A DNA stretch of 64,000 bases, taken from Mariprofundus sp. (lineage in GTDB: Bacteria; Pseudomonadota; Zetaproteobacteria; Mariprofundales; Mariprofundaceae). Both the position numbers and the translations under genes were made by a program. The stretch spans positions 62,001 through 126,000 of the forward strand of contig JAJFLH010000004.1 in the NCBI GenBank assembly GCA_021772775.1. Direction: 5' to 3'. How positions within the stretch are numbered: position 1 is the stretch's first letter; each line of letters opens with the position of its first letter. Shown here piece after piece: positions 7,745 through 20,919 of the stretch. The notes beneath the pieces are model-generated. The model was not told the origin of the DNA and searched no databases. It saw only the letters and a list, made by a program, of their open reading frames with translations.

Positions 7745-7774
7745 ATGAGATACAAAAAGGAATTGAATAAATGA
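7745..7774 (+). CDS. Possible 9-codon leader peptide overlapping the Na/Pi transporter start
   Basis: ATG at 7745 follows CAGGAG with good spacing, reads MRYKKELNK and stops at TGA 7772-7774, which overlaps the transporter ATG at 7771 as ATGA. This is the arrangement used for translational coupling. It may equally be chance; nothing else supports expression. Confidence 0.25.
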   Translation: MRYKKELNK

Positions 7775-9867
7775 AAAATACGCTTCGCAGGGTATTACTA
7801 CCCACTATTTTTATTGTTCTGGCTTATGGCTTCTGGGTAAGTCCGGATTTCAAAGAGATAGCGGCCGGGGTGGCAATATTCTTGTTTGGTATGCTGGCCC
7901 TGGAAGAGGGCTTCAGAGCCTTTACCGGTGGTGTGCTTGAGAAAATTTTGAGAAAAAGTACCAATAAGATGTGGAAAAGCTTGAGCTTCGGTTTCGCTGC
8001 TGCAACGGTGATGCAGTCGAGTTCACTGGTTTCTGTTATTACGATCTCTTTTTTGAGCGTGGGCATGATTGGTCTGGTTGAGGGGCTTGGTATTGTGTTT
8101 GGTGCTAATGTTGGGACCACGACAGGTGCTTGGTTGATTGCCGGTTTTGGTTTGAAAGTAAAAATTTCAGCATACGCCATGCCGATGTTGGTGTTTGGTA
8201 TTCTGCTTATTTTCCAGAAATCCAAGTCGCTGAAAGGTATCGGATATATTCTGGCAGGATTGGGTTTTCTCTTTCTTGGTATTCACCATATGAAAGAAGG
8301 TTTTGAGGCTTTCCAGCACAGTATTGATTTGACCGCATATGCCATGGAAGGGCTCGCGGGAGTGCTGGTATTTACGCTGATTGGTATAATTGCCACCATT
8401 ATTATGCAATCGAGCCATGCAACACTGGTGCTTATTATCACGGCTCTCTCTGTGAATCAGTTAACCTATGAAAATGCACTGGCTTTGGCGATTGGTGCGA
8501 ATGTGGGTACTACCATTACGGCAATCCTTGGTGCGCTATCATCGAATATTGAAGGAAAGCGACTGGCTTTGGCGGATGTCCTGTTCAAGGTGGCTGCGGG
8601 TGTTATTTTTATTCTATTTATGGAGCCGATGATAGGTGTGGTGGACTGGGTCGCTTCAGTGATTGGGCTGGCTGAAGATGATTATACCTTGAAGCTTGCT
8701 GTGTTCCATACGATTTTTAATGTGGCAGGTGTTATTCTTATGGTGCCGTTGATCGGTCTGTTGGTGAAGTTTGTCACGTCGACATTTCAAGGCGAGCCGG
8801 ACAGCTATGCGCAGCCAAAATATCTCAATGATTCAGCTCTGGAGTTCGGTGATACCGCACTTGAAGCACTGCGAAAGGAGACCGCTCGAATCTATGATAA
8901 AGCGACTGGCATCATCGCCAAAGGTTTGTCGTTAGAAAAAGCGGATATTCTTTCGGACACCAAGCTCAGACAGGTGATCAAAGCACATGATAAGGCTGTT
9001 GAATACGATATCGATGATCTCTATGAACATGAGATTAAAAGCCTCTGTAGTGCCGTTCTAGATTTTACCCATCATCTTTCTGGTGATCTGCTCATTGCAA
9101 GACAAGTCAATCGAATTCGTTTGGCCAATCAATCTATTCTGATCGCGATGAAGGATGTTAAACATCTGCAGAAAAACATGTTGCAGTATATCGATTCGGA
9201 TAATCAGGCCATTGCAAATGAGTATAATTATCTGCGTCAGCGTATTGCTAAGGTACTACGTCGACTGGAGAAGATAAGAAACCAGAGTGAGCCCAGTATG
9301 TCGATTTTATCTTTGGATGCATTGAAGTTGACGCTGGAAAAAAATATGGGGCTGTTGCATGAACGTATAAATAAGCTGATCAGTCAGGGCGATATTTCTG
9401 CTGAAATGGCCGTGTCACTGATGAACGATAGCAATTATACTTATAGCATTATTCATAATTTAATTCAGGTGAATCACAACTATATGAAAGCGGAAGAGGG
9501 GCAGGTTGAAACTGAGGCAGAGCACAAAATTGCTCTGAACAGGGAAGAAATTAGTTCTGTACTGCATAATTATCACAAGCTTGAGGATGAAGTGGGAGCG
9601 CAATCAGATTTGAACTTTGAAGAGCTGTTGAAGCAACTGAAATCGCACATGGACAGGGGCATCGAGGAGCTCCATCTGGAAACTGAGGGGCTGTCGAGTG
9701 TGCTGAAGAAACTGAAGCAGGAGGAGAATGAGATCAAAAAACAAATTGCGATTGAGGCAGGTGATGAGGAGCGCGAGCAGTTGCAGCAGGAGCTGAATAT
9801 TGTTCATTCACAACGCAAAAAAGGCAGGGCACTTCTATCACGCCTGCGTAAAAAAAGCGGTAGTTAA
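7771..9867 (+). CDS. Na/Pi cotransporter family protein with C-terminal PhoU-like helical region
   Basis: 698 residues. The N-terminal half (about 1-330) is a polytopic membrane domain with the two inverted halves of the Na/Pi-cotransporter family: MQSSSLVSV in the first and MQSSHATLVL in the second, each with a GANVGTT motif. The C-terminal half (about 345-698) is soluble, helical and charged, with PhoU-like stretches and a coiled coil near the end. The family couples sodium to phosphate uptake or export across the inner membrane. It lies between the ppk2 genes and the DUF47-pit pair, in keeping with phosphate handling. No Pho box was found in the 166 nt upstream. Confidence 0.9.
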   Translation: MKNTLRRVLLPTIFIVLAYGFWVSPDFKEIAAGVAIFLFGMLALEEGFRAFTGGVLEKILRKSTNKMWKSLSFGFAAATVMQSSSLVSVITISFLSVGMIGLVEGLGIVFGANVGTTTGAWLIAGFGLKVKISAYAMPMLVFGILLIFQKSKSLKGIGYILAGLGFLFLGIHHMKEGFEAFQHSIDLTAYAMEGLAGVLVFTLIGIIATIIMQSSHATLVLIITALSVNQLTYENALALAIGANVGTTITAILGALSSNIEGKRLALADVLFKVAAGVIFILFMEPMIGVVDWVASVIGLAEDDYTLKLAVFHTIFNVAGVILMVPLIGLLVKFVTSTFQGEPDSYAQPKYLNDSALEFGDTALEALRKETARIYDKATGIIAKGLSLEKADILSDTKLRQVIKAHDKAVEYDIDDLYEHEIKSLCSAVLDFTHHLSGDLLIARQVNRIRLANQSILIAMKDVKHLQKNMLQYIDSDNQAIANEYNYLRQRIAKVLRRLEKIRNQSEPSMSILSLDALKLTLEKNMGLLHERINKLISQGDISAEMAVSLMNDSNYTYSIIHNLIQVNHNYMKAEEGQVETEAEHKIALNREEISSVLHNYHKLEDEVGAQSDLNFEELLKQLKSHMDRGIEELHLETEGLSSVLKKLKQEENEIKKQIAIEAGDEEREQLQQELNIVHSQRKKGRALLSRLRKKSGS

Positions 9868-9941: not shown

Positions 9942-9979
9942 TGTCATATCTGTGACTCATATGTCACATAGATGTCACA
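9942..9979 (+). promoter_or_regulatory. Pho box before DUF47-pit
   Basis: TGTCACA at 9962 and again at 9973 are exactly 11 nt apart, separated by TAGA: the geometry of a PhoB box. A further TGTCATA at 9942 and a weaker TGACTCA at 9953 extend the 11-nt phase. A TATACAAT-like -10 follows at about 9987-9994, so the box sits where the -35 would be. It implies PhoB activation of the DUF47-pit operon under phosphate limitation. Confidence 0.75.
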
Positions 9980-10042
9980 TTAGGTATATACAATTCGTTC
10001 GAGTTAATGGATCAGGGTTGAAAAACTCATTTGGGAGTAGAT

Positions 10043-10723
10043 ATGGTAAGAAGAAGTCCAATTACAAATATGTTTGCTGGCTCGCCAGTTAAACCACTGC
10101 AGCAACATATCAGCAAGGTTCACGAGTGTGTGAAAAAGCTTGAGCCTTTTTTCTTGGCTGTGGTCGAGAAGGATTATGACCAGATGGCTGCTCTGCAGAA
10201 TGAAATTCATAAGTTGGAAGTGGAAGCTGATGATTTGAAACACGAGCTGCGTATTCAATTGCCAAATTCGTTGTTTATGCCGATGCCGCGTGAACGTATT
10301 CTTGATATCGTATTGAATCAGGATCGACTTGCCAACAAAACCAAGGAAATTGCCGGTTATGTGAATGGTCGTAGATTGGAGCTTCCTGATGAGATTGCCG
10401 ATATGATGCTTGAGCTTGTGAAGCAGAGCATTGCAGCCTCCCGTCAGGCCAAAAAGATTGTTAATGAACTTGATGAGCTGGTTGAGGTTGGTTTCCGGGG
10501 TCGCGAAGTGAGCAGCGTGGAGTCGATGATTAATGATCTCGATGATATTGAATATGGAGCCGATAAGCTTGGTACCCAAATTGATAATGCACTGTTTATT
10601 ATTGAAAAGAATCTGAACCCTATTGATGCGGTATTCTTGTACCGCGTGATACAAAATGTTGGCGAGGTTGCGGATATCGCACAGCGCGTTGGCGCCCGTC
10701 TCGAACTGTTATTGGCGCGTTAG
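10043..10723 (+). CDS. DUF47 / PhoU-like Pit accessory protein (TIGR00153 family)
   Basis: 226 residues from ATG 10043, chosen because GGGAG lies 5 nt upstream; an in-frame TTG at 10031 would give 4 more residues but has no ribosome site. The protein is all-helical, soluble and acidic, with the family start (SPITNMFAGSPVKPLQQHISKV) and repeated ExxxxD-type helices of PhoU-like proteins. It lies 12 nt before pit, the usual pairing for this family, which is thought to modulate the Pit transporter. Control is likely by PhoB through the upstream Pho box. Confidence 0.92.
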   Translation: MVRRSPITNMFAGSPVKPLQQHISKVHECVKKLEPFFLAVVEKDYDQMAALQNEIHKLEVEADDLKHELRIQLPNSLFMPMPRERILDIVLNQDRLANKTKEIAGYVNGRRLELPDEIADMMLELVKQSIAASRQAKKIVNELDELVEVGFRGREVSSVESMINDLDDIEYGADKLGTQIDNALFIIEKNLNPIDAVFLYRVIQNVGEVADIAQRVGARLELLLAR

Positions 10724-10735
10724 GGGGAGATAATC

Positions 10736-11998
10736 GTGGAAATACTTGTTGCAAATTCAACTATATTAATTGGTATGGCTGTTATGTTCGGCCTATTTAT
10801 GGCCTGGGGTATTGGTGCGAATGATGTTGCCAATGCTATGGGTACATCGGTTGGTTCCGGTGCTCTAACGTTTAAGCAGGCTGTCTATATTGCGGCCATA
10901 TTTGAGCTGGCTGGTGCCATTCTTGCAGGTGGTGAAGTGACTGCAACCATCCGTAAGGGAATTATTGATGTTTCATCCTTAGGCAGTACGCCTGAACTCC
11001 TGGTTTACGGGATGCTGGCATCCTTGCTTGCTGCCGGTATCTGGCTGATGGTCGCTACCCGTATGGGCTGGCCTGTCTCTACCACGCACTCTATTGTCGG
11101 TGCTATCGTAGGTTTCGGTGCTGTTGGTATCGGCATGGAAGCGGTTCAGTGGGGTAAAGTTGGTACGATTGCTATGAGCTGGGTGACTTCACCATTGATG
11201 GCTGGCGCACTCGCTTTTGCTCTGTTTAGAAGCATTCAGAAGCTGATTATTGATACCGAAGACCCGCTTGAAAGAGCCAAGAAGTACGTACCTTATTATA
11301 TCTTCATGGTTGGTTTCATTATCGCTATGGTAACGCTGCTGAAGGGGCTGAAGCATGTGGGTGTGAACCTGCCGTTTGAGCAGAACCTGTTCTATGCTGC
11401 ACTTATTGGTCTCATCTTTGCATTGATCGGGACAGTAATGATCAAACGCCTCAAGTTCACCAAGAAAGAGGATAAAAAGTTTCATTATACCAATATGGAA
11501 AAAATATTCGGTGTATTGATGATCTTTACGGCTATTGCCATGGCCTTTGCACACGGCTCTAACGACGTGGCGAATGCGATTGGTCCGGTTGCTGCGGTTG
11601 TAGGCATTGTTCAGAGTGGTGGTGATATTTTATCCAAGTCAGCAACGCCTATCTGGATTCTGATGCTTGGTGGTATTGGTATTGTTGTTGGTCTTGCGAC
11701 CTACGGCCATAAAGTGATCGCAACGGTTGGTTCCGGTATTACTGAACTCACACCGAGTCGTGGTTTTGCTGCAACGCTTGGTGCTGCTACTACAGTTGTG
11801 GTTGCATCCGGTACTGGCCTGCCAATCTCGACAACCCATACATTGGTTGGCGCGGTACTTGGTGTTGGACTGGCTCGTGGTATTGGTGCACTGAATATCG
11901 GTGTGATTCAGACCATCTTCCTGTCATGGATTGTAACCCTGCCTGCAGGTGCAATCCTGTCGATTCTGTTCTTCTTCTTTAAAGGCGCATTCAGCTAA
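10736..11998 (+). CDS. pit: Inorganic phosphate transporter, PiT family
   Basis: 420 residues with about ten membrane segments. Both PiT signature halves are visible: IGANDVANAMGTSVGSGALT near residue 27, and AHGSNDVANAIGPVAAV near 265. Each is followed by a P(V/I)STTH motif (WPVSTTHSIVGA, LPISTTHTLVGA). The family takes up phosphate or metal-phosphate with a proton or sodium. The GTG start at 10736 is preceded by GGGGGAG at 6-7 nt. It is co-transcribed with the DUF47 gene and ends at a strong terminator shared with the convergent phoU. Confidence 0.95.
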   Translation: MEILVANSTILIGMAVMFGLFMAWGIGANDVANAMGTSVGSGALTFKQAVYIAAIFELAGAILAGGEVTATIRKGIIDVSSLGSTPELLVYGMLASLLAAGIWLMVATRMGWPVSTTHSIVGAIVGFGAVGIGMEAVQWGKVGTIAMSWVTSPLMAGALAFALFRSIQKLIIDTEDPLERAKKYVPYYIFMVGFIIAMVTLLKGLKHVGVNLPFEQNLFYAALIGLIFALIGTVMIKRLKFTKKEDKKFHYTNMEKIFGVLMIFTAIAMAFAHGSNDVANAIGPVAAVVGIVQSGGDILSKSATPIWILMLGGIGIVVGLATYGHKVIATVGSGITELTPSRGFAATLGAATTVVVASGTGLPISTTHTLVGAVLGVGLARGIGALNIGVIQTIFLSWIVTLPAGAILSILFFFFKGAFS

Positions 11999-12069: not shown

Positions 12070-12780
12070 TTAGGATTTATTTTGTAGTTCGCTACCGATC
12101 AAGGCTGCAGCTGTATCGTGATCAACGTGGCGTACTTCATGGCCTTTCACCATATAGATGACCATTTCAGCTACATTTACTGCGTGATCGCCAATGCGTT
12201 CGAGGCTTCGGGCAATATCAGTGGCAATCAGGCCAGCAGTGATCTGACGCGGATCTTCCATCATATAGGTCAGATATTCGCGTTGCATGGATCTGAATTT
12301 GTCATCGACTCTCTTATCATGTTCAATACATGACATCGCTTTTGCCAGATCACCTGTAGCAAATGCATCCAGAGATCCTTTGAGTTGATCAAGCACAAGC
12401 TCGGAAAGTGATTGTAGTGAGGATACTTGAGTGAGTGGATGATCTTCAGTTCTGAGCATGTTTTCAGCAATTTCCTCAGCCAAATCACCCATGCGCTCCA
12501 GATCAGTCACTACCTTGATGGTGGTCATGACAAAACGTAAATCACTGGCAGCAGGCTGACGTAGAGCGAGCATCGTGCGTGTCATCTCATCAATTTCGAT
12601 TTCCAGAGCATTGATATCATGGTCGCGCTCAATGACTTTATGGGCACGTTTAACATCCTGTTTAATCAGCGAGTTCATTGATCGTTTGGTTGCTTTTTCA
12701 ACCATGCCACCCATGGCCAATACTTTTTCCTTTAATTCGTTCAGTTCATCTTCAAAACGTTTTATCGTGTGTTGATTCAT
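12070..12780 (-). CDS. phoU: Phosphate signalling protein PhoU
   Basis: 236 residues made of two three-helix PhoU repeats, with the metal-cluster type motifs RDHDINALEIEID (first half) and ERIGDHAVNVAE (second half), plus DLERMGDLAEEIAE. PhoU links the Pst transporter to PhoR and keeps the Pho regulon off when phosphate is plentiful. Last gene of the pstSCAB-phoU operon, 42 nt after pstB. Confidence 0.96.
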   Translation of the reverse strand: MNQHTIKRFEDELNELKEKVLAMGGMVEKATKRSMNSLIKQDVKRAHKVIERDHDINALEIEIDEMTRTMLALRQPAASDLRFVMTTIKVVTDLERMGDLAEEIAENMLRTEDHPLTQVSSLQSLSELVLDQLKGSLDAFATGDLAKAMSCIEHDKRVDDKFRSMQREYLTYMMEDPRQITAGLIATDIARSLERIGDHAVNVAEMVIYMVKGHEVRHVDHDTAAALIGSELQNKS

Positions 12781-12822: not shown

Positions 12823-13605
12823 TTAGCCGAAACGGCCGGTAATGTAATCTTCAGTCTTTTGATGTTTTGGGGCAGTAAAAATAGTTTGTGTATCGCCATA
12901 CTCAATCAGGTCACCAAGATAGAAATAGGCAGTGTGATCAGATACACGTGCGGCCTGTTGCATATTATGGGTAACAATGACGATGGTGAACTCCTCTTTT
13001 AGTTCATCCATCAACTCTTCAATTTTAGCGGTGGCAATCGGATCAAGGGCTGAGCAGGGCTCATCCATCAAAATAACATCCGGCTTAACCGCAATTGTAC
13101 GGGCAATACATAAACGTTGCTGCTGACCACCGGAGAGGGCAGTGCCGGGCTGTTGCAATTTATCTTTTACTTCATTCCAGATGCTTGCTTTTCGTAATGA
13201 CGTTTCGACCAACGCATCCATATCAGGGCCATCGCTGACCAGGCCGTGGATGCGTGGGGCATAAGCAATGTTCTCATAAATACTTTTCGGGAACGGGTTG
13301 GGTTTTTGAAACACCATGCCGACGTGGGTGCGTAGTTGCACGACATCCACTTCAGGAGCATAAATATCCTGACCTTCTAGCAGGATCTGTCCTTCTACCC
13401 GGCATGAAGGGATGCGGTCATTCATACGGTTCATGGTACGTAAAAAAGTGGATTTTCCACAGCCTGATGGGCCGATAAAAGCGGTGATTTTTCCACTAAG
13501 TATGTCCAGGTCAATGCCGTGCAGGGCCTCGAAATCACCATACCATAGCTTCAGGTCGCGAATCGAAATTTTTGTGCTGTTGTCTGTTTTTAAGTCACTT
13601 TTCAT
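12823..13605 (-). CDS. pstB: Phosphate ABC transporter ATP-binding protein PstB
   Basis: 260 residues, full length. Walker [10 protein letters not shown] near residue 45, Q-loop in [11 protein letters not shown], signature LSGGQQQR near 160, Walker [14 protein letters not shown], and H-loop IVTHNM. It drives high-affinity phosphate uptake with PstA and PstC. 9 nt separate it from pstA. Confidence 0.97.
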
Positions 13606-13614
13606 TTTCTTCCC

Positions 13615-14850
13615 TTACCACGTTTGTTGTGCACGATTTCTTAGTTTTACAGCCAGTGCATTCAGGCTTAAAAGTACGGTCAGTAGTACAAGAATACCTG
13701 CCGCAGTGCGTTCGCTATAACCGCGCAGTGATTCAGTTGACCATGTATATACCTGAGCAGGCAGAACAGTGGTTGCATCCAGAATTGATGTGGGTGCATC
13801 TGGAATATATGCCATCATACCGACAATAATCAATGGGGCGGTTTCACCCATCGCTTGCGCCAAACCAATGATTGAACCGGTTAAAATACCGGGCATCGCC
13901 AGTGGTAGCACATGATGCCATGTCGTTTGCAGATTGGATGCACCGAGCCCGTAGGCTGCTTCACGGATTGATTCGGGTACTGCGCGCAGTGAAGCACGGG
14001 TGGTGATGATAATCACCGGCAGTGTCATCAGTGCCAGTGTTAAACCACCTGCAAGAGCGGATGAACGTGGCACACCAAAGAAGCTGATGAAGATGGCCAG
14101 GCCTAGCAGCCCATATAAAATCGAAGGAATGGCAGCCAGATTGTTGATGTTTACCTCAATCAGACGAGTGAAGCGATTGTCTGCGGCAAACTCTTCCAGA
14201 TATATGGCTGTCATCACCCCGATAGGTACAGCCACCAACATAGTGATTAGCAGGGTGAATACAGAACCGACGGCCGCCGCCCAAATTCCGGCATATTCAG
14301 GCAGTTTTGAATCACCTCTGGTGAACAGGGTGGTATTAAAAACAGATCGTACTCTGTTTTCTTGCTGCATTTCTTTAACAGTACGTTGGTATTTGGATTT
14401 CAGACCATGTCCGTCATGTTCTTTGATGAACTGGTCGACACGGCTATCAGCAGGTACCCATTCATCATGGCTGGTGCCAATCATCTCCGGATGTGCTTCA
14501 AGGTATTGCGGAATACTGCGTAACCAGGCGCGACTGACGATGCGTCGAACGCTTTTATCGACTGCTTTATTATAATTCTTTGTTGCAGCCTTTGTATAAT
14601 TGACGGTGACATGCACTTCAGTCTGATCAAATGCAGGTAAAGCCTGACCGATGATGTCGACAAAAAAGAAGACCAGAAACGCCAGCGCCATTGCAATGGC
14701 AGTGAAGCCATACCAATGAAAGCGTCTGTCAGCACGCTTTCGTTTGATTTGGCGGTCTGATTTGTTGTTGTTCATAAAAGAGGCTGTTTTTGTCACTTCT
14801 GTAAGTTGATTCATATCAGTTTGGTTATCCATATCTACTCTGTTATTCAT
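13615..14850 (-). CDS. pstA: Phosphate ABC transporter permease PstA, with N-terminal DUF3333-type extension
   Basis: 411 residues from ATG 14850, which overlaps the pstC stop by 8 nt (ATGAATAA), so translation is coupled; a frame extension further upstream lies inside pstC and is rejected. One membrane segment near residues 46-66 is followed by a long periplasmic insert (about 70-180), then the BPD permease core of five to six segments with the EAA loop (EAAYGLGASNLQTTWHHVLPLAMPG). The extension before the core resembles the DUF3333 region of PstA from many proteobacteria, which makes the protein longer than E. coli PstA (about 296 aa). Confidence 0.93.
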   Translation of the reverse strand: MNNRVDMDNQTDMNQLTEVTKTASFMNNNKSDRQIKRKRADRRFHWYGFTAIAMALAFLVFFFVDIIGQALPAFDQTEVHVTVNYTKAATKNYNKAVDKSVRRIVSRAWLRSIPQYLEAHPEMIGTSHDEWVPADSRVDQFIKEHDGHGLKSKYQRTVKEMQQENRVRSVFNTTLFTRGDSKLPEYAGIWAAAVGSVFTLLITMLVAVPIGVMTAIYLEEFAADNRFTRLIEVNINNLAAIPSILYGLLGLAIFISFFGVPRSSALAGGLTLALMTLPVIIITTRASLRAVPESIREAAYGLGASNLQTTWHHVLPLAMPGILTGSIIGLAQAMGETAPLIIVGMMAYIPDAPTSILDATTVLPAQVYTWSTESLRGYSERTAAGILVLLTVLLSLNALAVKLRNRAQQTW

Positions 14851-16105
14851 AGCGCTGCCTGAATTTTCGAACCACAATGGTCGAAACGATATTGAGCATA
14901 AGAGTGATGATGAGCAGTACCAGGCCGAGCGCAAAGGCGGATAGGGTGAAGGCGGAATCAAATTCCTGATCGCCTGTGAGAGCCTCAACGATCTTTACTG
15001 TCACCGTAGTCATGCCTTCAAGTGGGTTGGCGGTAAGATTGGGGCGCAAACCGGCCGCCATGACCACAATCATCGTTTCCCCAATGGCGCGTGATACGGC
15101 CAGCAAGCATGCTGCGACAATGCCGGGAAAAGCTGCGGGTAAAACGATATGGCGAATGGTCTCCGCTTTGGTTGTGCCGAGAGCCAGTGAGCCGTCTCGC
15201 AGGTGTTGGGGTACGGCGCGAATGACATCATCTGACAGAGATGAGATGAATGGAATAATCATCACGCCCATAATCAGGCCAGGCGCCAATGCATTGGTAT
15301 AATCAGCTTCTAATCCAAATGAGTGGGCAATTTCAACCACGATGGGGCTGATGGTGATGGCGGCAAAGAAGCCATAAACCACGGTTGGAATACCAGCCAG
15401 AATTTCTAACAGAGGTTTTAGGCGGCCACGGGCATTGTGGCTGGCATATTCGGACATATAAATAGCAGCGAACAGGCCGATGGGGATAGCCACAAACATA
15501 GCGATCAGGGTGATCATGAAGGTGCCTGCGAAAATGGGCAGGGAGCCGAATAGCGGGGGGGCTACATTTTCATCAGCGCGTCCGGCACCTACCAGAAAAG
15601 CTGTGTCCGGCTGCCACTGTGTGCCGGTGATGAAATCCCATATCGGAATAACCTGGAAGAAACGAATCGATTCAAATACGACCGACAGCACAATGCCCAG
15701 AGTGGTTAAAATAGAGATGGTTGCGGCTGTGAAGAGCATGCAACGCATAACCTTTTCAACGGATTGACGTGCACGAAATGCTGCTTTGACATGACCAAGG
15801 CCATACCATAAACCGGCACCGGAAAGCCCGAAAGCAGAGGCCAATAACATGGTGGATGGTATTTCAATCAGGTTAAATAGATGTGCCACACTGCCAAGCA
15901 GAGATACAGCTAAAGCGGGAAGAGCTACCCAGCTGACAGCGTACCAGCCATAAAAGCCGGGACGGGAGTGTAATCGTACATGGTTTGATTCTACAGAGAG
16001 GGCTTTGCCGCGGGCTAAAAAATAAGCCATCGCTGAGAGCGGTAATAGCCCCCCAAAGAACCAGAGAAATAAATCAGCAGTGCTCATTAAATTATTTAGC
16101 TCCAT
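14843..16105 (-). CDS. pstC: Phosphate ABC transporter permease PstC
   Basis: 420 residues with an N-terminal membrane region (PstC_N type, about residues 1-140) and the C-terminal permease core, including the EAA loop DGSLALGTTKAETIRHIVLPAAFPG near 330. It pairs with PstA to form the channel. Two starts are possible: ATG 16105 has no clear ribosome site, while the Met seven codons in (16087) has GGAG 12 nt upstream. Overlaps pstA by 8 nt. Confidence 0.94.
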   Translation of the reverse strand: MELNNLMSTADLFLWFFGGLLPLSAMAYFLARGKALSVESNHVRLHSRPGFYGWYAVSWVALPALAVSLLGSVAHLFNLIEIPSTMLLASAFGLSGAGLWYGLGHVKAAFRARQSVEKVMRCMLFTAATISILTTLGIVLSVVFESIRFFQVIPIWDFITGTQWQPDTAFLVGAGRADENVAPPLFGSLPIFAGTFMITLIAMFVAIPIGLFAAIYMSEYASHNARGRLKPLLEILAGIPTVVYGFFAAITISPIVVEIAHSFGLEADYTNALAPGLIMGVMIIPFISSLSDDVIRAVPQHLRDGSLALGTTKAETIRHIVLPAAFPGIVAACLLAVSRAIGETMIVVMAAGLRPNLTANPLEGMTTVTVKIVEALTGDQEFDSAFTLSAFALGLVLLIITLMLNIVSTIVVRKFRQRYE

Positions 16106-16179: not shown

Positions 16180-17235
16180 TTAGTGTTTTTGCTTCAAGTC
16201 GCTGGGTTTCATGCGCGTCAGGTTTTTCAGGTTATCACGGTAATGATCACGCATAGCTTCTGGCAATGGGATCAAGCCGATGTCTGCACACTCACCGTCA
16301 TCACCAACCATCTGTTCACTCAGGAACAGGTTTGCATATTCAAGCATGCCAGGCACTTTTTTGATGTGTGACTGTTTGATGTAGAAGTACAATGAACGAG
16401 AGAGTTTATACGAACCGTTTTGCACAGCTTCTGGTGATGGAGCTACGCCTTCGATAGTTGCAGCAGCAATGCTATCGCTGTTTTCAACCAAATAGCTGTA
16501 ACCGAAGATGCCTAGTGAAGCAGTGTCTTTAGCCAATTTTTTAACGATTAGGTTGTCATTTTCACCGGATGGGACATAAACGCCATCTTGACGAATATTG
16601 TGAAACTTCTTGTACTTTTTATTTTTCACTTTGTCAGCTTTATACAAGTCAGTATAAACAGGCATTTTCTTGGTGATGCCTTTGAGGATCATATCTTCAA
16701 ATGCATCACGTGTACCGGATGATGCTGGTGGACCATAGATCGTGATCTTGCGTTTTGGCAGTGTTTCACTGATCTCATTCCAGTAGTGATACGGGTTGGC
16801 GATGAGTGCAGTACCCTCTTTGTTAGGTACTTCTGCAGCTACAGCCAGCATCATCTCTTTACGCGTGAGGTTCAACGGTTGAGCACCTTTAGACTGAGCA
16901 ATGGCGATGCCATCATAACCGACGACCATCTCAGTGATATATTTTACGCCATTCTTCTGGCATTTCTTGAACTCTTTGGCTTTCATGCGACGTGATGCAT
17001 TGGTCATGTCAGGCGTGTCCATGCCATTGCCGGCACAAAATAGTTTCATGCCGCCACCTGAACCGGTTGATTCAACAACAGGTGTTTTAAAGTCGGTAGT
17101 CGCGCCCAATGCTTCAGCTGTATAGCTGGAGAATGGGTATACGGTGGATGAGCCTACGATTTTGATCTGTTCACGTGCTTCTACTGCGTGCGCAGCGATT
17201 AACAGTGTGGCAGTTGCCAGTATAATTTTTTTCAT
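16180..17235 (-). CDS. pstS: Phosphate-binding protein PstS (periplasmic)
   Basis: 351 residues from the ATG at 17235, preceded by AGGAG at 10 nt; an upstream in-frame ATG at 17256 has no ribosome site. A signal peptide (MKKIILATATLLIAAHAVEA) is followed by the binding-protein start IKIVGSSTVYPFSS; STGSGGG and ASSGTRDAFE supply the phosphate-binding Ser/Gly/Arg residues. Captures phosphate in the periplasm for PstCAB. First gene of the operon; a Pho box lies about 100 nt upstream. Confidence 0.95.
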   Translation of the reverse strand: MKKIILATATLLIAAHAVEAREQIKIVGSSTVYPFSSYTAEALGATTDFKTPVVESTGSGGGMKLFCAGNGMDTPDMTNASRRMKAKEFKKCQKNGVKYITEMVVGYDGIAIAQSKGAQPLNLTRKEMMLAVAAEVPNKEGTALIANPYHYWNEISETLPKRKITIYGPPASSGTRDAFEDMILKGITKKMPVYTDLYKADKVKNKKYKKFHNIRQDGVYVPSGENDNLIVKKLAKDTASLGIFGYSYLVENSDSIAAATIEGVAPSPEAVQNGSYKLSRSLYFYIKQSHIKKVPGMLEYANLFLSEQMVGDDGECADIGLIPLPEAMRDHYRDNLKNLTRMKPSDLKQKH

Positions 17236-17333
17236 TGTGGATATGCTCCTATTCATTGATAGAGGTTAAAGTATGGCAGCAAGGTCATGTGTGTTGCCCT
17301 ATCTGATTTGTATGGGGGAGCCTGTCAGAGCTT

Positions 17334-17351
17334 TGTGTCAGAGATGTGACA
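17334..17351 (-). promoter_or_regulatory. Pho box upstream of pstS
   Basis: On the minus strand TGTCACA-TCTC-TGACACA, an 11-nt spaced pair with one mismatch in the second half-site. It lies about 100 nt before pstS in the right orientation. Confidence 0.6.
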
Positions 17352-17371
17352 AGGAGGGTGAGGTGAGATGA

Positions 17372-17409
17372 TGTCGTTGAGATGTCATCAATGTCACACT
17401 GTTGTCATA
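17372..17409 (+). promoter_or_regulatory. Two further Pho-box-like pairs, opposite orientation
   Basis: TGTCGTT/TGTCATC at 17372 and 17383, then TGTCACA/TGTCATA at 17392 and 17403. Each pair is 11 nt apart; the two pairs are 9 nt out of register. They point away from pstS, so they may be extra PhoB loading sites rather than the promoter box. Confidence 0.5.
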
Positions 17410-17444: not shown

Positions 17445-17474
17445 AAAAAAGGCTCCATATTTGCATATGGAGCC
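17445..17474 (-). terminator. Terminator of the phosphate-island porin
   Basis: GGCTCCATAT-GCAA-ATATGGAGCC on the minus strand, a perfect 10-bp stem, followed by TTTTTT. Confidence 0.88.
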
Positions 17475-17499
17475 TTCATGTTTTGAGTCTCTTGCCTAC

Positions 17500-18633
17500 T
17501 TACAGTTTGATTTCTGAGTAGAGGCCGAAACGATTGTCTTTGCGTGTATTGGCGCTAACACCACCACGATTAGCCAGTTTGTTGATATCAGCAACGAGGG
17601 CAAACTTAACACCTTTGGTTACAGTGTATTCGATGCCGCCGATATAACGGGTCAGTTTCTCGCTAGTTGTTTGCCCCGTAAGTTTATTACTAAGGCTTTC
17701 ATAGCGGGCAAATGCACCGAAATCAGCAGCAAACTTAGTCCAGGCCCATAATCCATGTGCTTTGCTTTTTACGATATCGCCAACTGCTGCTGTACGATAA
17801 GCGCTGCTGACCGCGCCACCATGAGATAGTGATACTGCGGCTGACTTAGCAAGATCCTTGTTGATCATATAGTTGCCGCCAATGCGGAACTCCTTGGTGC
17901 CGTAAGAGACCATTGTTTGCATAAGTGTTGATTTCACGCCGGCAGCTGTAACACCTGCCACTGTTGTTTTGGTGCCGCGATATCCATCACGGAACTGAAA
18001 GTCCAAGGTCAGCCCTTCAACAGGATAGAGGCCAATGCGGGCATTCAGATCGACAGAACCTGCACGTGCTGCATTGCCATAACCTGTGCCGTTGGTTTCG
18101 GTAACAAAGTATTGAACCAAACCATCTGCCAATTTTCCTTTCAAACCAAGCCCTAGATCGTAGGAGTCATCAAATTTGTATCTGTCAGCCATGACCTGAG
18201 AGGCGTAACGGTGTTTCCACAGGCTCTGTTCATAGTCAATCCATGGGGTGTGAGACTGTCCAATACGTAAATCAAGAGCATTACCAACCAGTTTGCCTTC
18301 AAGATAAGCGGCCTTTAGAAAGACGTTCTGCTTTTTCCCACCAAGAGATTGGTCGTTACCGGCATCAAGTGTAATACGCATCATCCATGCATCGTTGAAG
18401 TAATATTTAGCAGTGAAGTAAGCGCGGTCAACAGCCAGGCCGACAGTTTTTGTCGACAATGTGGAGGCTGCAGTGATGGTGTCCGCAGTCTGTCCATAGG
18501 TGTTCAGATAGAGCAGCGCTTCAAGTTTTAGCTTGCTGTCACCTTTTTCAGCTAAGGTCACACCACCAGCCATGGCTGGGGTTACGAAAGCCAAAGCTGC
18601 AGTTGCAGCGATTATTTTCATTGTTGCTTTCAA
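17500..18633 (-). CDS. Outer-membrane porin, probably phosphate-starvation induced
   Basis: 377 residues. The TTG start at 18633 is preceded by AGGAG at 7 nt; the in-frame ATG four codons later lies too far from it. A signal peptide (MKIIAATAALAFVTPAMA) precedes a beta-barrel rich in alternating aromatic/polar strands that ends in a strand whose C-terminus is EIKL. It is distantly like OprP/OprO-type or general porins; the family cannot be fixed by eye. The upstream minus-strand Pho box and position beside pstS and phoBR suggest anion or phosphate passage through the outer membrane; this is inference. Confidence 0.85.
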   Translation of the reverse strand: MKATMKIIAATAALAFVTPAMAGGVTLAEKGDSKLKLEALLYLNTYGQTADTITAASTLSTKTVGLAVDRAYFTAKYYFNDAWMMRITLDAGNDQSLGGKKQNVFLKAAYLEGKLVGNALDLRIGQSHTPWIDYEQSLWKHRYASQVMADRYKFDDSYDLGLGLKGKLADGLVQYFVTETNGTGYGNAARAGSVDLNARIGLYPVEGLTLDFQFRDGYRGTKTTVAGVTAAGVKSTLMQTMVSYGTKEFRIGGNYMINKDLAKSAAVSLSHGGAVSSAYRTAAVGDIVKSKAHGLWAWTKFAADFGAFARYESLSNKLTGQTTSEKLTRYIGGIEYTVTKGVKFALVADINKLANRGGVSANTRKDNRFGLYSEIKL

Positions 18634-18704
18634 TTTGATTCTCCTATGTTCGGTTGTCTTGGGAAGTTCATATATTTGATTCTGGATACAGATTAAAACA
18701 TGAA

Positions 18705-18722
18705 TGTGACATTATAATGACA
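18705..18722 (-). promoter_or_regulatory. Pho box for the porin
   Basis: On the minus strand TGTCATT-ATAA-TGTCACA, two good half-sites exactly 11 nt apart, about 75 nt before the porin start. Confidence 0.8.
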
Positions 18723-18740
18723 TAAGGGTTTATTTTTACA

Positions 18741-18758
18741 TGTCATGAGGATGTCACA
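18741..18758 (+). promoter_or_regulatory. Pho box for phoBR
   Basis: TGTCATG-AGGA-TGTCACA on the plus strand, 11-nt spacing, divergent from and 18 nt away from the porin box. It implies auto-activation of phoBR. The stretch from here to phoB (about 280 nt) is a long leader in which no other gene was seen. Confidence 0.8.
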
Positions 18759-19036
18759 TTATTATTTCAGGTTGCTTCTTACTAAATCAGAAAAAAAGAG
18801 AGGTGTGTGGATGCTCCTACAGCAAAGCAATGATACATTAGAGTCATCTGAGATATATAATTCTCAGCTTTGTCGCATTGTCTTGGAAGCTCATGGCGTG
18901 GGCGTTTAACTGATGTGTTCTCTTTCTCAGATGTATTATAAATCTCAATATGGAGTACAAAAATATAGTGTGTTGTTATGCCAAGGCGTGTTTGATGCTT
19001 GAGGTGAATCACAGATACTCTCAGTATCAAGACCTG

Positions 19037-19753
19037 ATGGAAGGTGATACTGAGCCCCAAATGGATAGAGCAGATATTTTAATTGTTGAAGATGAAGCGC
19101 CGATTGCACGATTGATTGCGTTGCATCTTCATGCGGCAGGGTATTCAACCCACATTTGTGCAGATGGCGATCTTGCCATGGCGGCTCTGCGCGGCAGTAA
19201 CTGGAAGCTGGTGGTGCTTGATCGTATGTTGTCTGGTACCAGCGGTATGAAAATTCTACGTTGGATTAAGAGCTCTTCTGCTCACGTTCATATTCCAGTG
19301 CTTATGGTGACAGCATTGGGTATGTCATCCGAACGTGTGCAGGGCTTGAATGATGGTGCTGATGACTATCTGCCCAAGCCGTTTGAGCCTGATGAGTTGG
19401 TGGCCCGCGCCAATGCCCTGCTCAGACGTAGCCGAGTGGTGGAGACAGGAGTCTCAGCTAGCCCTTGTATCGAGCTTGATCCCGATGTTCCCGTGGTTTT
19501 TGAAGGAGATAAACGCATCGAGTTACGTCCTCTGGAATATAAGTTGTTAAAAATTCTTATGAATAAACCGGGTAAGACACGTGATCGAGAATATCTGCTT
19601 GATCATGTGTGGGGGCGAGACGTGTTTGTCGAAGCTCGAACTGTGGATGTGACGGTGAAACGATTACGCAAAGCTTTGCAAAAAATTGGTAGAGGCAGTT
19701 GTATCGAAACAGTACGTAGTATGGGGTATCGCTTCGTGAGCCCTAAAGAATGA
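19037..19753 (+). CDS. phoB: Phosphate response regulator PhoB
   Basis: About 238 residues from ATG 19037. The start is uncertain: in-frame starts exist at 18950, 18998 (AAGG 8 nt upstream) and 19061; the receiver proper begins at ILIVEDE. The receiver has Asp in VVLDRMLSG, Thr in MVTALG and Lys in LPKPFEPDEL. An OmpR-type winged helix follows (LRPLEYKLLKILM, DREYLLDHVWG, RTVDVTVKRLRKAL, SMGYRF). It activates Pho promoters by binding TGTCAY repeats, which occur at three places in this window. Overlaps phoR by 4 nt (ATGA). Confidence 0.93.
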   Translation: MEGDTEPQMDRADILIVEDEAPIARLIALHLHAAGYSTHICADGDLAMAALRGSNWKLVVLDRMLSGTSGMKILRWIKSSSAHVHIPVLMVTALGMSSERVQGLNDGADDYLPKPFEPDELVARANALLRRSRVVETGVSASPCIELDPDVPVVFEGDKRIELRPLEYKLLKILMNKPGKTRDREYLLDHVWGRDVFVEARTVDVTVKRLRKALQKIGRGSCIETVRSMGYRFVSPKE

Positions 19754-20919
19754 CTGCAGGTTGGGTCTTATTGATCCTGGCTATATTGGTTGTTTGGCTA
19801 TTTCAGTCACGCGCTAAGAGTGAACAGCTGCGACATTATAAAGCTGAAGTGCACCGCTTGCAGGAATCTCGCGGAGGTCTTGAACGCTCAATTGCTACAA
19901 GTGGACGCCGTCTGGATGTGTTGCTTTCAGCGGTGAATGAAGTGGTGATGCGTGTTGATCATACTGGCCGAGTAATGGCTGCCAACAGATTGGCCAGTAG
20001 GCGTTTTGCGATGCATCGGCAACATGCTTTACCGCAATCTATATTGCTGTTTTTCCGAGACCCAGACTGGCATAGGGATTTTATGACGGCTCTCAAGCAA
20101 TTGCCAGAACCATCAAGTTTGCCGGATATGGAAGTGGATGGTCGTATGCTATCTCCAAGGCTTGCGCCATTGGGGAGTGATCAGGCTTTGCTGTTGTGCG
20201 TTGATATGACAGAGACTTACAAACTTGAAGCACAGCGCCGAACCTTTCTCTCTAATTTGATGCATGATTTGAAAACGCCACTGACCTCATTGCTCGGTTA
20301 TGCCCGTAGTATGGAAAAGTTTGGCGATGATGAAGGCTTTCGCAAAGAGGCAGCTCAAGTGATTGCTGATGAGGCGAAACATGTGAATCATCTGCTTGAT
20401 GCACTATTAACACTGGATCAAATCGAGTTCTCGAGCAGAAAAGACGATGTAAGTTGCGAAGCTTCAATCGTGTTACATCAAGTTTACAACATGCTGATGC
20501 CGCAATGCCAAGAGAAGAGTGTCGAATTATTGTGTGATATCACTTCGCCTGATGCGCTACTTGCTATCTTGGATGATGAACTGGAGAGGATTCTCACTAA
20601 CCTGCTGGTGAATGCTGTGAGCTATGCCCCTCACAATAGCAGGGTCGAGATCAAGCTGGTCTTAACAGGGGCGATGAGTTCGATTGTTATTGAAGATCAA
20701 GGCGATGGTATTCCTGATCGAGAGATATCGAGAGTTACCGAGCGCTTTTATCGGGTCGATAAAGCCAGAACCCGTAAAGATGGAGGGCATGGTTTAGGTC
20801 TGGCAATTGTAAAAGAGCTGGTTGAGAAAAATGGCGGGGAGTTGAAGCTGTCGAATCGTTCATCTGGAGGTTTGCGTGCTGAAGTGATGCTGCCCTTAGC
20901 TTTGACACTGCCAAGCTGA
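19750..20919 (+). CDS. phoR: Phosphate regulon sensor kinase PhoR
   Basis: 389 residues. One N-terminal membrane segment (about residues 2-20), a short coiled coil, a PAS-like region (about 55-155), HisKA with phospho-His in NLMHDLKTPLTSLLGY near 175, and HATPase_c with N box NLLVNAVSYAPHN, G1 EDQGDGIP and G2 GGHGLGLAIVKELV. There is no large periplasmic domain, as expected for PhoR, which senses through PstSCAB-PhoU. Coupled to phoB by an ATGA overlap. Confidence 0.93.
   Translation: MTAGWVLLILAILVVWLFQSRAKSEQLRHYKAEVHRLQESRGGLERSIATSGRRLDVLLSAVNEVVMRVDHTGRVMAANRLASRRFAMHRQHALPQSILLFFRDPDWHRDFMTALKQLPEPSSLPDMEVDGRMLSPRLAPLGSDQALLLCVDMTETYKLEAQRRTFLSNLMHDLKTPLTSLLGYARSMEKFGDDEGFRKEAAQVIADEAKHVNHLLDALLTLDQIEFSSRKDDVSCEASIVLHQVYNMLMPQCQEKSVELLCDITSPDALLAILDDELERILTNLLVNAVSYAPHNSRVEIKLVLTGAMSSIVIEDQGDGIPDREISRVTERFYRVDKARTRKDGGHGLGLAIVKELVEKNGGELKLSNRSSGGLRAEVMLPLALTLPS

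Follow-up and report, generated by a model that had tools for sequence, protein, structure and literature searches.

The interval between a porin gene and phoB in a Mariprofundus genome (18634-18994 of the window, by which we mean the whole 64-kb stretch of DNA analysed) very probably acts as a divergent pair of PhoB-activated promoters, directing transcription leftward into the porin and rightward into phoB-phoR when phosphate is short; we give this reading a probability of roughly 0.88. In the proposed mechanism, low phosphate would lead phosphorylated PhoB to bind each of two Pho boxes as a head-to-tail dimer, and the bound protein would replace the missing -35 element and recruit RNA polymerase to a -10 element about 10 nt downstream. 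The leftward transcript would encode the porin; the rightward one would encode phoB-phoR, so that PhoB would enhance its own synthesis (positive autoregulation). Beyond the porin, the pst operon is preceded by a terminator and a separate array of Pho boxes and need not depend on the porin box. A PhoB switch of this type is ordinary and of a known kind; the notable part of the locus is a family-restricted gene for a cNMP-binding (CNB) protein and its natural deletion. The locus offers a clean, conserved case of PhoB control in the Zetaproteobacteria, marine iron oxidisers whose iron minerals bind phosphate, and it exposes a third gene in the phoBR operon together with the loss of that gene in one genome. 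The boxes, their orientation and the gene order are plain in the sequence itself:

17500-18633, minus strand: predicted outer-membrane porin, with a TTG start behind AGGAG
18690-18695, minus strand: probable -10 element of the porin promoter, TAATCT, separated from the box by exactly 10 nt
18706-18722, minus strand: Pho box toward the porin, TGTCAT-TATAA-TGTCAC, TGTCATTATAATGTCAC, an exact pattern match
18741-18757, plus strand: Pho box toward phoB, TGTCAT-GAGGA-TGTCAC, TGTCATGAGGATGTCAC, an exact pattern match
18768-18773, plus strand: regulator-side -10 position, CAGGTT (weak), in the 10-nt register, its last T well conserved in relatives
18995-19753, plus strand: phoB, most likely starting at 18995 and not at 18950
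19750-20919, plus strand: phoR, sensor kinase, with TIGR02966 as best NCBIfam model and aligned to E. coli PhoR

Each box consists of two direct half-sites resembling CTGTCAT, 11 nt apart from start to start, which is how a Pho box is defined in two papers (PMC4415409, PMC3131613); the leading C of the half-site is missing from both. The boxes lie back to back, separated by 18 nt, each oriented toward its own gene. The first-pass annotation had described opposite-facing boxes with this internal spacing and separation between a porin and phoBR, and both proved to be exact matches in the expected place, flanked on the left by the gene for a predicted beta-barrel porin and on the right by phoB-phoR. 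Its picture of one single site has to be amended, as two adjacent boxes were found instead. The design is that of PhoB-activated promoters in E. coli (phoB, pstS and phoA): the half-site, the 11-nt repeat, the box in place of a -35 element and, on the porin side, the -10 about 10 nt downstream are the same, and in E. coli phoB is autoregulated, as proposed here. There are also differences. In E. coli K-12 the divergent neighbour of phoB is sbcD, whereas here it is a porin, and E. coli phoB has no opposite-facing second box at up to three mismatches, compared with the two boxes here. Among open-licence papers, whose silence is weak evidence of absence, we found no study of the Pho regulon or phoB in Zetaproteobacteria or Mariprofundus, and no divergent Pho-box porin in titles or abstract openings.

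The pattern TGTCAYN5TGTCAY has four exact matches in the 64-kb window against 0.06 expected (100 dinucleotide shuffles, none of which reached four). All four adjoin phosphate genes, and they are the sole exact matches in the whole 3.12-Mb genome. With up to one mismatch allowed, genome-wide matches are no more frequent than those of a reversed-pattern control (41 versus 41). The motif is thus of use here only as an exact match or when context backs it, and a genome-wide Pho-regulon census by pattern was dropped for this reason. A matrix derived independently from 59 E. coli PhoB sites tabulated in PMC10294691 ranks the two boxes fourth and fifth in the window, with ranks one to three also in the phosphate cluster; the score of the weaker box was reached by 0.23 positions per simulated 64 kb, and by at least one position in 21 of 100 simulations. 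A generic sigma-70 scan gave no promoter excess here (four found versus 4.0 expected). Counting against the reading, many of the sites of PhoB in E. coli lie inside genes and are transcriptionally inert, according to the same paper (PMC10294691). It is from the layout of the locus and its retention in relatives that we infer PhoB binding, activation rather than repression, and a response to phosphate.

The close relatives of the locus come from Mariprofundus and other Zetaproteobacteria. Among 80 porin loci, 42 were counted (L067-L108), labelled Zetaproteobacteria, Mariprofundus, Mariprofundaceae, Mariprofundales or Ghiorsea, with two labelled only proteobacterium; the remaining 38 (L109-L146), which have distant porins and are mostly from Campylobacterota, were left out. 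The loci are related by descent and their counts are therefore not independent. The phoB gene is present in 37 of the 42, and the porin is divergent from phoB in all 37. Of the five loci lacking phoB, four are cut off by the end of a contig; in the other, L100, the 3.7 kb upstream of the first porin contain no phoB. A divergent, non-overlapping pair of boxes with at most one mismatch each occurs in 31 of the 37 loci (mean 0 in 30 shuffled sets). Taken singly at the same threshold, the porin-side box is kept in 34 (mean 0.2 in 30 shuffled sets) and the regulator-side box in 35 (mean 0.17). Among the 37 loci, the best boxes are separated by 18-21 nt in 17 (including one locus with a two-mismatch box) and by 9-11 nt in six; the distance is 28 nt in two more, and 39, 43, 79, 389 and 2002 nt in another five. 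The best matches overlap in six loci, and in one the porin-side box was not found. Six of the 37 lack a pair as defined above; in L104, 2 kb separate the two boxes.

On the porin side, 27 of 34 relatives have TANNNT exactly 10 nt past the box, and none of the other offsets between 0 and 24 has it in more than four; L102 and L108, in which the estimated porin start is too close for the column to be read, were scored as misses. This fixed distance, with TAATCT in the window, fits a PhoB-activated promoter. The retained pair and the fixed porin-side -10 thus lend sequence-level support to the earlier suggestion that PhoB would switch on both its own operon and a porin. The rightward promoter is the weaker inference. 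In 35 relatives, TANNNT follows the regulator-side box at +10 in 12, at +8 in five and at +9 in four, all above other offsets; it is absent from +10 in the other 23, and CAGGTT in the window is a poor match. In the E. coli phoB promoter sequence, CATAAT stands 10 nt after CTGTCAT. In an alternative reading, activation comes from the porin-side box only; the regulator-side box would serve feedback repression or modulation, and phoBR would be transcribed from another promoter in the leader. The poor window hexamer and the difference between 12 of 35 and 27 of 34 speak for it. However, the regulator-side box points toward the operon and is kept with at most one mismatch in 35 of 37 loci, and the hexamers that do occur gather at +8 to +10. 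We consider this alternative unlikely and retain activation in both directions as the preferred reading.

In most relatives, it is the CNB gene and not phoB that comes first after the regulator-side box: an ORF of about 175 aa on the phoB strand lies between that box and phoB in 34 of the 37 loci. Its product contains the PF00027 cNMP-binding domain in all 23 proteins scanned, and its structure model (pLDDT 87) has a CNB roll and a long C-terminal helix, with no HTH; the nearest folds are CRP-like and PKG-like domains. The relatives' product therefore resembles CRP/PKG-type CNB proteins, such as the stand-alone 3gyd, in its Pfam domain and in its predicted fold. It differs from them in multiple ways. 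First, it is without a DNA-binding domain. Second, it is encoded by the first gene of a phoBR operon. Third, a profile alignment shows Leu and His in its family at the positions that in kinases are occupied by Glu and Arg of the phosphate-binding cassette. The gene was found in 55 of 249 sampled genomes of the phylum (E ≤ 1e-20), all of them in the window's own family, and at least nine genomes of that family, the window's included, have no match at this threshold. In the window genome there is no CNB orthologue, the best matches being domains of larger proteins, and only the beginning of the gene is left ahead of phoB:

18811-18909, plus strand: CNB gene remnant, with the Shine-Dalgarno region, the start codon and about 20 codons, then a deletion; a 32-aa ORF is left

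At the DNA level, the remnant aligns without gaps over 73 nt to the L005 orthologue (none of 500 shuffles was as good), and the distance from its start to phoB is about 325 nt shorter than in the nearest relative. At the 3′ side of the gene only the phoB start junction is conserved: the MLE... start of phoB is kept, and in several relatives it overlaps the stop codon of the gene before it within the sequence TGATG. A surviving CNB 3′ end in the window was hinted at by the multiple alignment; a shuffle test did not bear it out (241 of 500 as good). Judged by these comparisons, the regulator operon ancestrally begins with the CNB gene, and the window genome has most of that gene deleted. The start codon and Shine-Dalgarno region are intact, and the 32-codon ORF could for that reason be taken as a functional leader peptide tuning phoB translation and not as debris. 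This is very unlikely, given that the ORF is the cut-off beginning of a gene that is longer in relatives, and that, among 23 genus genomes, the short form is matched over its full length in the window's own genome only. Occurrence in one assembly would also be expected if the missing gene were an assembly error. That explanation is highly improbable: the contig is long, the genome is 99.96% complete and has no orthologue elsewhere, and phoB and the boxes are intact on both sides.

A literature search for CNB genes associated with phoB/phoR or with the Pho regulon, confined to open-licence papers and so weak evidence of absence, found no such arrangement or role reported. We offer one tentative idea on its function, possible but doubtful at present. 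Mariprofundaceae might possess a three-gene phosphate switch, CNB-phoB-phoR, in which a small CNB-fold protein, expressed from PhoB's own promoter and encoded by a gene overlapping the phoB start, would sense a nucleotide or other ligand, tune PhoR-PhoB signalling and link the phosphate response to energy state. The window genome would then be a natural loss-of-function line, running phoBR without CNB.

The regulator itself scores 223.8 bits against its best NCBIfam model, TIGR02154, below the equivalog cut-off of 296.2. We nevertheless name it PhoB because of its genomic context and its 43% identity to E. coli PhoB. Identical residues include the receiver Asp53 and W184, R193, T194, R201, R203, T217, R219 and Y223; several of the latter eight presumably contact DNA. 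PhoR, at 222.5 bits, is likewise below the equivalog cut-off of TIGR02966 (334.2) and was named by context. Its N-terminus (19750-20919 is the whole gene) is short and seemingly has one membrane segment, in comparison with E. coli PhoR. That the boxes are read mainly by another OmpR-family response regulator, as the sub-cut-off PhoB score and the lack of a genome-wide site excess at one mismatch might suggest, is scarcely credible, since the sites resemble those of E. coli PhoB in sequence and the boxes adjoin phoBR and pst in nearly all relatives.

The porin was identified by its predicted fold. The window protein has no meaningful Pfam match of its own, although members of its family match PF07396 (Porin_O_P) in six of 21 cases and PF13609 (Porin_4) in three of 21, at E values of up to 1. 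A sequence search against solved structures gave nothing useful, so the fold was used instead: the model is a beta barrel (pLDDT 86, from 37 sequences). General porins lead its list of fold matches, and the Pseudomonas phosphate-starvation porins OprP and OprO stand further down, at ranks 11 and 50. Two sequence sets were restricted. Set A2 omits nine of the relatives' 29 porin loci (L010, L014, L016, L018, L019, L023, L025, L026 and L027), some for faulty ORF calls and some as near duplicates, and set A3 comprises 36 of 38 porins, L082 and L100 being left out. A porin under a Pho box is an arrangement shared with E. coli PhoE and with OprP/OprO, and in Shewanella a porin adjoins phoBR. In several relatives (for example L067, L068 and L101), two tandem porin copies precede pstS.

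Behind the porin lie the pst genes and phoU, preceded by a terminator and an array of boxes:

17448-17477, minus strand: terminator hairpin after the porin, 13 pairs and a T run
17335-17408: pstS-side Pho array, with boxes at 17392-17408 (plus), 17372-17388 (plus) and 17335-17351 (minus, toward pstS)
16180-17256, minus strand: pstS; TIGR02136 is the best-ranked model but scores 142 bits against a cut-off of 206.6; PF12849 is above cut-off
14843-16105, minus strand: pstC; TIGR02138 above cut-off
13615-14988, minus strand: pstA; TIGR00974 above cut-off; the listed ORF start is probably too far upstream
12823-13605, minus strand: pstB; TIGR00972 above cut-off
12070-12780, minus strand: phoU; TIGR02135 above cut-off

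The gap between porin and pstS is 243 nt; in it, two boxes point away from pstS and a third points toward it, an order that recurs in L070. By eye, the reversed boxes (17372-17408) have no antisense -10 at the right distance. With a strong terminator after the porin, pst transcription would not have to start from the porin box, and pst is probably under its own control here; the idea that the porin box also drives pst was rejected for the window on the same ground. In 27 loci, the window among them, the boxes between porin and pstS include one toward pstS in 13, only face away in one (L067) and are lacking in 13. Co-transcription of porin and pst is possible in the 13 loci that have no box there.

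One further Pho-box array in the window stands before a transport operon:

9951-9994, plus strand: Pho box array and -10 element TACAAT before the DUF47 (orfA)-pit operon, whose ORFs span 10031-11998

The orfA-pit box is exact, and TACAAT follows it at 10 nt. Of 18 orfA-pit loci, 17 were examined (L184, a match without a gene start, was left out); seven of the 17, including the window, have an exact box upstream, all of them among the nine closest, and TANNNT stands at +10 in all seven. Sinorhizobium meliloti also has a Pho box before its DUF47-pit operon, and there orfA-pit is repressed on phosphate starvation, according to PMC3131613. The box and -10 spacing suggest the opposite here, namely activation of orfA-pit by PhoB. 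Upstream of this operon, a 698-aa ORF (7771-9867) resembles, by eye, a Na/Pi cotransporter with a PhoU-like tail. By the same inspection, three neighbouring systems for phosphate uptake seem to be encoded in the window.
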